23,590 nt of DNA from a virus. The notes below the pieces were generated by a model that was not told the DNA's origin, made no database searches, and saw only the letters and a program-made list of their open reading frames with translations. Both the position numbers and the translations under genes were made by a program. How positions within the stretch are numbered: the stretch's first letter is position 1; each line of letters starts with the position of its first letter. The DNA lies in the IMG/VR virus record IMGVR_UViG_3300037193_001675, positions 1-23,590 of that record. One strand, 5' to 3'. Shown here one piece after another: positions 8,626-9,838 of this stretch.

Positions 8626-8934
8626 CTACTGTTCCTCTTGGCCTTCGATGGAGAGGGCTGCCTTGGTGTAGAGAGTGTCGGTGAGGTCCATCAGCTCGAT
8701 CTCGACTTGGACGTACTCGTCGCTGGGAGCGTTGAGCACCTGTTGGGCCTGGTCGGAGCTGTGGGGTGAGATGCCTAGGCGGTCAATGTACTGCTTGGCC
8801 TCGTCTTGGGTGGCGAACTCGCGCTTGATGAAGACGTGAGGCGGTGGACTGTCTGGTGTTGGCGAGAGCGGGTCGTCCTTGCTCCACACCACTTCTTTGT
8901 AGTGGGGCTCGGTGCTGATCTCGATGTGGATCAT
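8626..8934 (-). CDS. Hypothetical protein, first gene of the P8977 operon (102 aa)
   Basis: I chose ATG 8934, with AAGGAG about 11 bases upstream, over the longer frame to 9042, which would run through the promoter. Residues 1-17 (MIHIEISTEPHYKEVVW) and 34-42 are strands, followed by helices (ATQDEAKQYIDRLG, SSDQAQQVLNA). The leader is about 36 bases and has no ACAGGA hairpin, unlike most independently initiated leftward genes. No family is recognised. Confidence 0.7.
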   Translation of the reverse strand: MIHIEISTEPHYKEVVWSKDDPLSPTPDSPPPHVFIKREFATQDEAKQYIDRLGISPHSSDQAQQVLNAPSDEYVQVEIELMDLTDTLYTKAALSIEGQEEQ

Positions 8935-8976
8935 CCGCTTTGTGGCTCCTTGTGTAGCAGGTTTCCTGACTCTGAA

Positions 8977-9083: not shown

Positions 9084-9105
9084 GGGCCCCTCTAAAGAGG
9101 GGTCC
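9084..9105 (-). terminator. Probable leftward terminator hairpin
   Basis: GGGCCCCTC pairs with GAGGGGTCC over about 9-10 bp with a small TAAA loop. On the minus strand a TTTTT run appears about eight bases after the stem. It sits between the last gene of the upstream unit (stop at 9312) and the promoter at 8977. Confidence 0.55.
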
Positions 9106-9113
9106 CAGAAAAT

Positions 9114-9134: not shown

Positions 9135-9210
9135 GCAGGGGGTACCAGGAGTTGGAAGGATTTTTGCGACTCGTGGAATAGAAGGTGGCGGTGGGGGGGT
9201 TGGTGATAGG

Positions 9211-9254
9211 GCTCGGTGAGGGACTTGAACCCTCTGTTTTGACCTGGACCGAGC
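9211..9254 (-). other. tRNA-like acceptor/T-arm minihelix
   Basis: On the minus strand a perfect 7-bp acceptor (GCTCGGT with ACCGAGC) encloses a perfect 5-bp T stem (GAGGG/CCCTC) and a canonical seven-base T loop (TTCAAGT). Only 13 bases (CCAGGTCAAAACA) separate the 5' acceptor strand from the T arm, so the D and anticodon arms are absent. CCA is not encoded. It could be a decayed tRNA, a tRNA mimic or a remnant of an attachment site. Confidence 0.45.
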
Positions 9255-9287: not shown

Positions 9288-9303
9288 CAACCCTATAGGG
9301 TTG
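9288..9303. repeat. 16-bp perfect palindrome
   Basis: CAACCCTATAGGGTTG is fully self-complementary and lies eight bases beyond the leftward stop at 9312. On the plus strand it is followed by TTTTCTG, on the minus strand by no T-run. It could be an operator or a terminator for antisense transcription. Confidence 0.5.
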
Positions 9304-9311
9304 TTTTCTGA

Positions 9312-9497
9312 CTACTCCACGGCCAACAGTGCTGACCAGCGGTTGACGGCCTCGTACTCGAGCTCGACGGCTCGGATGCGACGCCATTCGCGGCGACGGC
9401 CAAAGAACAGCTCGGCCTGGTCCTTGTACGCCTTCGACAGGTCGTACAGGCGCTGGATCAGTTCCAGCTCACGGCTGATGGGATCGATGTTGTTCAC
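9312..9497 (-). CDS. Hypothetical helical protein, start uncertain
   Basis: The protein is one long basic amphipathic helix (ELELIQRLYDLSKAYKDQAE, then REWRRIRAVELEYEAV), possibly a coiled coil. Three starts are possible. ATG 9530 has no RBS and overlaps the upstream gene by 37 bases. GTG 9497 overlaps the upstream stop as GTGA, but AGGAG abuts it. ATC 9488 is exactly eight bases after AGGAGG. I give the GTG, which fits the local overlap habit. The leader carries a degenerate ACAGAGGA version of the hairpin loop. Confidence 0.62.
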   Translation of the reverse strand: MNNIDPISRELELIQRLYDLSKAYKDQAELFFGRRREWRRIRAVELEYEAVNRWSALLAVE

Positions 9498-9838
9498 CTC
9501 CTCTGTGGGTCGAAGAATGGGTGTTCCCATCCGAGGGAGATGGGCTTGTCGTTGATCGGTTGGTCCTCGATAGTGGCGACCCCACCGTTGAGGAAGTCTC
9601 CCTCACAGTCTCGGATGAGGAACTGGATGAAGAGGCTGTCCGTATCGGTGTAGGAGATGAAGACGGTGAAGTTGTCCCCCTCCGACTCCAGAATGAACGG
9701 TCCTGCCATCCACTCTGCGAATCCATGGTCGGAGTCGATCATCATCTCACCTGTGAGGGACGTGCCCTTGAGGTCGAGGCCCCGCTCGGACCTAATCAGG
9801 TCGAGCAGAGCCTCGTTGTTGAACTCGCGGGTGATCAT
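9494..9838 (-). CDS. Hypothetical acidic protein (114 aa)
   Basis: ATG 9838 overlaps the upstream stop as ATGA. The protein starts with a helix (NNEALLDLIRSERGLDL) and continues as an acidic beta-rich region (GDNFTVFISYTDTDSLFIQF). No family is recognised. Translation is probably coupled to the gene at 9835-10125. Confidence 0.72.
   Translation of the reverse strand: MITREFNNEALLDLIRSERGLDLKGTSLTGEMMIDSDHGFAEWMAGPFILESEGDNFTVFISYTDTDSLFIQFLIRDCEGDFLNGGVATIEDQPINDKPISLGWEHPFFDPQRR

Follow-up and report, generated by a model that had tools for sequence, protein, structure and literature searches.

A window of 23,590 nucleotides, positions 1 to 23,590 of the IMG/VR virus record IMGVR_UViG_3300037193_001675, contains an intergenic sequence that can be read as the acceptor stem and T arm of a tRNA without the arms between them. 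This raises the question of whether the locus is a product of chance, the remnant of a tRNA gene, or a functional RNA of minimal tRNA shape, and in the last case what such an RNA might do between the genes of a phage.

Anatomy and setting of the window minihelix

The preliminary description of this locus had proposed a perfect 7-bp acceptor, a perfect T stem and a canonical T loop with a joint of 13 bases, and this anatomy was confirmed (Table 1), all 12 pairs of the 7-bp acceptor and 5-bp T stem being Watson-Crick. The element reads on the minus strand, which that description had left unstated and which is also the strand of the flanking genes. Chance pairing had been judged unlikely, in agreement with our calculation, which allows 61 linker lengths and gives an expectation of 3.2e-4 per window for the whole arrangement; it occurs once in the window and was not encountered in 6 Mb of first-order Markov sequence. 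Counting both strands, the T arm of the minihelix is the only perfect one in the window, where 0.13 would be expected.

Table 1. Positions of the minihelix and its neighbours in the 23,590-nt window
Feature	Position	Strand	Basis
Whole acceptor/T-arm minihelix, 44 nt	9211..9254	minus	read from sequence, arrangement scan, fold
5' acceptor strand GCTCGGT, G1 at 9254	9248..9254	minus	
13-nt linker CCAGGTCAAAACA, in place of D and anticodon arms	9235..9247	minus	
T arm GAGGG-TTCAAGT-CCCTC (5' stem 9234-9230, loop 9229-9223, 3' stem 9222-9218)	9218..9234	minus	
3' acceptor strand ACCGAGC, C72 at 9211	9211..9217	minus	
Positions 73-74, C and C (mycobacteriophage elements mostly A73 C74)	9209..9210	minus	
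Upstream small ORF; better-supported start ATC at 9488 behind GAGGAGGTGAACAAC	9312..9530	minus	
Downstream gene, function unassigned, ATG at 8940	8626..8940	minus	57% identical over the alignment to the gene following minihelix MH3 in G002
G+C-rich hairpin GGGACCCCTCTTTAGAGGGGCCC then AACGACATTTTT, between minihelix and downstream gene	9084..9106	minus	read from sequence

The linker contains GG at 9244-9243, a feature of the wider family described below, and we propose that this GG takes the place of G18 and G19 of the D loop. The acceptor and T stem (7 + 5 bp), closed by the loop TTCAAGT, likewise fall within the stack of 11-12 bp that characterizes the family. Among the determinants of RNase P, G1:C72 and C74 are present, whereas position 73 is C and not A or G. 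An isolated 51-mer of this copy folds as the minihelix, with −17.8 kcal/mol and z = −3.3. By thermodynamic prediction, competing pairings lower the helix probability to 0.14-0.43 once the flank is at least 30 nt long, compared with a median of 0.87 for the elements of five mycobacteriophages with 40-nt flanks.

The minihelix is intergenic and on the strand of the genes; 57 nt separate it from the stop of the upstream ORF and about 270 nt from the next start. A perfect palindrome, CAACCCTATAGGGTTG, occupies 9288-9303, between the upstream stop and the minihelix. The hairpin on the downstream side (9084..9106) is a possible transcript end, which is absent from the list of the terminator scan, and the promoter scan of the window gave no sigma-70-like site near the minihelix. 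The window virus is probably an actinobacterial phage: megablast of all 23,590 bases matched only two Microbacterium phages, at 74% over 207 bases of the capsid gene. BLAST of the locus against phages gave short unrelated matches only, and no relatives were found through the neighbouring 72-aa protein.

The suggested check for a tRNA was negative, as ARAGORN found no tRNA in the window and Rfam gave no match at the minihelix; the 13-nt linker is too short for the missing arms. In the related phages introduced below, ARAGORN calls none of the elements in L194, L197-L201 and L203 as a tRNA gene, and searches for a tmRNA, tRNA or Rfam-based identity of the elements failed. Comparison with host tRNA 3' ends had also been proposed, in case the sequence were a phage attachment site (attP). 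The 22-mer that forms the 3' half of the window element, GGGTTCAAGTCCCTCACCGAGC, has no exact match in genome_contigs (84,980 species, among which the true host may be absent) or in IMG/VR, and a pattern exact to the window element has no match in IMG/VR.

Related elements in other phages

Relatives were gathered through the capsid protein, taking the best 80 of 155. One of these, locus L014 in record G002 (49,882 bases), has the early gene block in common with the window. The gene behind the window minihelix has a homologue in G002, and directly upstream of it G002 carries a copy (GCCGGG..GAGGGTTCGACTCCCTC..CCCGGC) of the same plan with a different acceptor, which reads GCCGGG-ggttggtgaagtg-GAGGG-TTCGACT-CCCTC-g-CCCGGC-A in full. 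Two further minihelices are found in the same gene block of G002 and on the same strand. The G002 copies follow stop codons by about 6-11 nt, compared with the 57 nt seen in the window. Over the whole records of these best 80 of 155 capsid relatives, copies at E < 0.01 were found in G002 alone, so that the element appears restricted in the capsid lineage. Strict T arms in the loci of the capsid relatives (1.0 Mb) number 17, against 1 in reversed sequence, a count that includes real tRNAs, coding matches and repeated contigs.

Genes beside minihelices seem to start with ATC after a strong Shine-Dalgarno sequence (window 9488 on the minus strand; L089 3155, 4489 and 5537 on the plus strand), and in the window homologue of one such gene ATG replaces ATC at the same codon (8940). 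Judged from these start regions, AUC initiation in the lineage of the window and G002 is possible; in G002 overall, ATC starts are not clearly enriched (6 observed, 3.94 expected).

A second set of relatives, gathered through the neighbouring protein A3 (the best 80 of 236), gave further single copies in L150 (E 5e-4), L118 (E 6e-4) and, more weakly, L165 (0.043). In loci L111 and L112, a T-loop hairpin stands between each of a row of small genes. These rows (L111 7012-11862 and L112 7009-10315) comprise about 13 small genes, each behind a near-identical module in the order T-loop hairpin, CCCC-ATTA-GGGG hairpin, ribosome-binding site and ATG. The two loci have 14 and 10 T arms, and we treat their repeats as related in kind only, because 8 of the 14 T arms in L111 have no acceptor under the acceptor rule.

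Cultured phages were reached by BLAST with the L111 module and then with the gaps of Indlulamithi. Roughly a dozen unannotated elements are present in each of the Mycobacterium phages Indlulamithi, Cuke, Fowlmouth, MrMiyagi and Papyrus, while the Gordonia phage Octobien14 has three, OneUp one and the Corynebacterium phage PSonyx two. One PSonyx element (L195 15825-15864) lies directly between gene 91, which encodes an RtcB-like RNA ligase, and gene 92. Applied as one rule to 16 sources, the scan gave 76 acceptor-bearing calls, and none in the reversed sequences. BLAST also led to Parabacteroides phage PDS1, in which no T arm qualifies; Courthouse has two real tRNAs only, and Peas has no element under the scan rule.

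Two covariance models were built. The first (R1), trained only on the window copy and the three G002 copies, produced 60 matches at E ≤ 1, with 21 below 0.01, in 11 sources from the named phages (228,554 bases); of all 60, three come from annotated tRNAs, at their T arms. The second (R2) was trained on 28 mycobacteriophage elements and gave no match in the window at E ≤ 10, which leaves the window copy unscored by the model built without it. In G002 it matched one of the three copies at full length (E 0.017). The commonest linker of R2, AACGGTTTTCG, is absent from the window and G002 copies. The window copy is the single member in 23.6 kb and is placed more loosely than the elements of the mycobacteriophages. 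Nevertheless, it probably belongs to a phage family of minimal tRNA mimics, because of its anatomy, the differently sequenced copy at the syntenic position of G002, and the ability of R1, a model that contains the window copy, to find the other families.

Other tRNA-like sequences were seen in the material. A 354-kb phage contig (L144 8483-15045) shows, by eye, reduced tRNA-like structures, for example a 7-bp acceptor with a short hairpin, an AAAGG linker and a T arm. Three loci have a TATAAT box followed, about 20 nt on, by the T arm ACGGGTTCAAGTCCCGT (L006 20572-20588, L008 19211-19227 and L010 13675-13691, the last on the minus strand), which is possibly a T-arm leader in another lineage. 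Equal-scoring matches resembling tRNA 3' ends lie near both ends of a 36.9-kb contig (G010 C1:56-96 and 36822-36862), and represent either a terminal overlap or attL/attR.

The elements covary and recur on the gene strand near stop codons

When 28 mycobacteriophage elements are aligned without gaps, 93.2% of the cells are paired, while slid registers give 38-47%. Double-sided changes account for 122 cells, compared with 35.8 in shuffles, and the 28 sequences show changes on both sides at 11 of the 12 pairs. Since the scan rule itself required most of the aligned pairs, greater weight falls on pair 18:36, which lies outside the search rule and is standard in 28 of 28 elements, and on searches that were blind to the stems. 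For the latter we used IMG/VR patterns with the letters of the linker and T loop fixed, plus one or two T-stem letters, and collapsed identical cores. With the first linker type the T stem is complete in 29 of 29 distinct matches and a 5-bp acceptor is present in 24; with the second, ACTGGCAGACA, the T stem is complete in 33 of 35 and the acceptor in 34. Both types together give 64 distinct elements, 62 with a full T stem and 58 with a full acceptor, the chance of a full acceptor being below 1% per match. The second linker presumably resembles the D loop of tRNA-Leu.

The qualifying T arms of the five mycobacteriophages, annotated tRNAs included, number 72 on the gene strand and 0 on the opposite one, which indicates that the signal belongs to the transcript. 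In a full count of 256 loop motifs, TTCxA occurs 73 times, two motifs 44 and 19 times, and the next one 8 times, with a median of 1; in our own reading, the motifs counted 44 and 19 times are the TTCxA hairpins read on the opposite strand.

Several features are conserved among the 52 distinct elements of these five phages. GG is present in every linker, at the same offset in 36 elements, and the helix measures 11 bp in 35, 12 bp in 16 and 10 bp in one, mostly as a 5-6 bp acceptor on a 6-bp T stem rather than the 7 + 5 bp of the window. The first pair is G1:C72 in 42 elements and G:T in 5, with A73 in 43 and C74 in 49. In L194 5315-5366, L203 7310-7362 and L198 5908, a small additional hairpin that separates the linker from the T stem, similar to a class II variable arm, was noticed by eye.

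The placement of the elements is also regular. In the five phages, the first base of 55 of 58 acceptor-bearing elements falls between −6 and +18 nt of a coding-sequence end, with a median of 9 nt, the remaining three being far outliers, one of them measured from an annotated tRNA. On the other side, 43 of 48 scored elements are followed by the next annotated start after 28-58 nt, usually after about 45 nt. Among 35 measurable leaders, the distance from position 73 to the beginning of a leader hairpin is usually 2-5 nt; 30 of the leaders have z < −1, and the mean is −2.2. Cuke, Fowlmouth and MrMiyagi share one orthologous element whose sequence overlaps the annotated stop codon. As a warning to annotators, 11 of 68 T-arm elements lie inside annotated genes (e.g. 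L198 3982-4021 and L198 8440-8486), and the starts of these genes have probably been called too early, because the enclosed elements are mostly found just behind the stop of another gene.

Putative processing, alternatives and known counterparts

In tRNA the elbow is made by docking of G18 and G19 of the D loop into the T loop (excerpt of PMC4810234). Bacterial RNase P clamps this elbow, measures 12 bp to the 5' end, makes contact with G1:C72 and base-pairs with RCCA at the 3' end (excerpts of PMC4919913 and PMC11143913). Model hairpins that consist of acceptor, T stem and T loop are cut by RNase P at the canonical site (PMC11143913, in part), and for this enzyme the D loop is dispensable and the T loop needed (PMC4919913, in part). 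With their conserved GG, stack length, G1:C72, A73 and C74, the elements thus retain the features that RNase P recognizes and have shed those required for translation. On balance, we favour the reading that they are minimal tRNA mimics cut by host RNase P, perhaps also by RNase Z, between co-directional genes; the comparison shows their fold, covariation, repetition, strand and placement, whereas the elbow contact, the cleavage, the identity of the enzyme and the benefit to the phage are what we infer from their form and position.

According to this model, the transcribed element would fold into a tRNA-like coaxial stack of acceptor and T arm, and the two G residues of the short linker would dock into the T loop to form an elbow as in tRNA. 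Host RNase P would then measure from the elbow and cut before G1, and RNase Z might cut after position 73. The polycistronic message would thereby be divided after one stop codon and ahead of the ribosome-binding site that follows, and in the mycobacteriophages the small hairpin behind position 73 would shield the new 5' end of the downstream message. The preliminary description had suggested recognition by T-arm-binding enzymes, which is supported in part, insofar as the relatives keep covarying stems, the T loop and the RNase P features.

The main rival to cleavage by RNase P is processing on the 3' side only, by RNase Z and CCA addition, which would cap the 3' end of the upstream message with a tRNA-like structure and let the downstream message start at the leader hairpin. 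The start of that hairpin about 2-5 nt past position 73 is as this reading predicts, and the element that overlaps a stop codon is a point against 5' cleavage, since a cut before G1 would do harm there by removing the stop codon. The elbow and T arm are, moreover, also read by RNase Z and the CCA-adding enzyme (excerpts of PMC4810234 and PMC4919913). However, conservation of G1:C72 and C74 is a feature of RNase P rather than RNase Z substrates, and we regard exclusive 3' processing as unlikely, though worth serious consideration.

For the window copy alone, a chance hairpin or a terminator-like hairpin of the plus strand has to be weighed. It is single in the window, missed by R2 and predicted to fold poorly with long flanks, and its plus-strand T arm is listed as terminator-like, in a scan that found 3 such hairpins against 1.6 in shuffles. 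Against this stand the expectation of about 3e-4 and the different minihelix at the syntenic spot of G002, which make this explanation doubtful.

The description had also considered a decoy, and one can imagine a sponge that titrates tRNA-binding enzymes or protects from tRNA-targeting defences. An acceptor with a T arm is indeed what such enzymes bind, and the copies are many, but a decoy needs neither a leader hairpin nor a fixed spot a few nucleotides after stop codons, so that the position of the elements between a stop codon and the following start would go unexplained, and the stem sequences vary freely. We therefore consider this role improbable.

Still less probable is an element acting as DNA, such as a promoter, an operator or a recombination site (SAS/ESAS or an integron-like cassette border). 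The elements resemble the SAS/ESAS of cluster K mycobacteriophages in being repeated between genes upstream of the starts of small genes (PMC3203893, in part), and the repeats of L111 and L112 look like borders of gene cassettes. The single orientation of the T arms (72 plus, 0 minus), the asymmetry of the loop and the compensatory stems argue instead for RNA, and the window copy has no sigma-70-like site nearby. Moreover, ESAS are inverted repeats of 17 bp and, in the view of the authors, their differences give no support to pairing as RNA (excerpt of PMC3203893); none of these repeats, found next to SAS (GGGATAGGAGCCC), occurs in the region of the window minihelix. Conversely, the stretches of Pixie, with ESAS, and Pherobrine, with cluster DJ repeats, contain no mini-tRNA element. 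Repeats upstream of starts in cluster DJ are already in print (PMC9753669, in part), and other repeated motifs in Microbacterium phages are positional analogues (PMC7302621, in part). Seen by eye, the published repeats in the gaps of Pherobrine (L226) look like modules of a terminator and a TATAAT promoter, not like mini-tRNAs.

The last of the earlier suggestions, a tRNA gene in decay or the 3' end of a tRNA that was captured at attP, is strongly disfavoured even though phages of this group carry tRNA genes next to such regions and partial tRNA genes are known at integration sites (excerpt of PMC9897764). The 5' acceptor strand, which would be missing from an attP, is present here, no exact match was found in genome_contigs or IMG/VR, and several differently sequenced copies in one genome that have lost and kept the same arms, with compensatory changes, point to selection and not decay.

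The RNase P reading has counterparts among known RNAs. The mascRNA and menRNA of MALAT1 and NEAT1 (RF01684) are likewise tRNA-like structures within a longer RNA that recruit tRNA-processing enzymes, and Indlulamithi elements score 23.0 and 22.3 bits against this family, below its gathering threshold of 42.5, with no match for the window. They stand as single copies at the 3' end of mammalian lncRNAs, whereas the phage elements are intergenic, numerous and smaller, with a cleavage that is put forward from their features. The tRNA-like domain of tmRNA has an acceptor and a T arm without an anticodon arm, and its Rfam model gave a sub-threshold match of 25.6 bits (gathering 47); the phage elements, of 40-odd nt, have neither a tag reading frame nor pseudoknots. 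The tRNA-like structures of plant viruses form the 3' ends of RNA virus genomes, are pseudoknotted and are aminoacylated. They too mimic the elbow of tRNA, including the contact between D and T loops (PMC4810234, in part). The model RNase P hairpins AT1 and the pMini series, in which acceptor, T stem and T loop suffice for cleavage at the canonical site (excerpt of PMC11143913), are synthetic, whereas the phage elements are natural and have a linker bulge bearing GG. Finally, mitochondrial tRNA punctuation also places tRNA-shaped RNA between the genes of a polycistronic transcript (excerpt of PMC8601606), but with full tRNAs in organelles, while the phage elements are miniature and have no anticodon. 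Judged by titles and the beginnings of abstracts, the open PMC literature yielded no account of phage intergenic elements with a tRNA-like form. Processing signals of tRNA-like shape are known from mascRNA and organelles, and it is the phage form, the small size and the repetition that appear new.

It may well be that many phages, especially actinobacterial ones, punctuate their transcripts with a dozen or more mini-tRNAs, at which host tRNA enzymes cut out single-gene messages capped by a hairpin. If this is true, the elements would provide dozens of natural minimal substrates for probing the needs of RNase P, RNase Z and CCA-adding enzymes, and the unexplained gaps of 90 nt in phage operons would be accounted for. 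RNase P would then be a direct mRNA-processing enzyme of phages, and tRNA punctuation would occur outside organelles, with about the smallest natural tRNA-like substrates imaginable.
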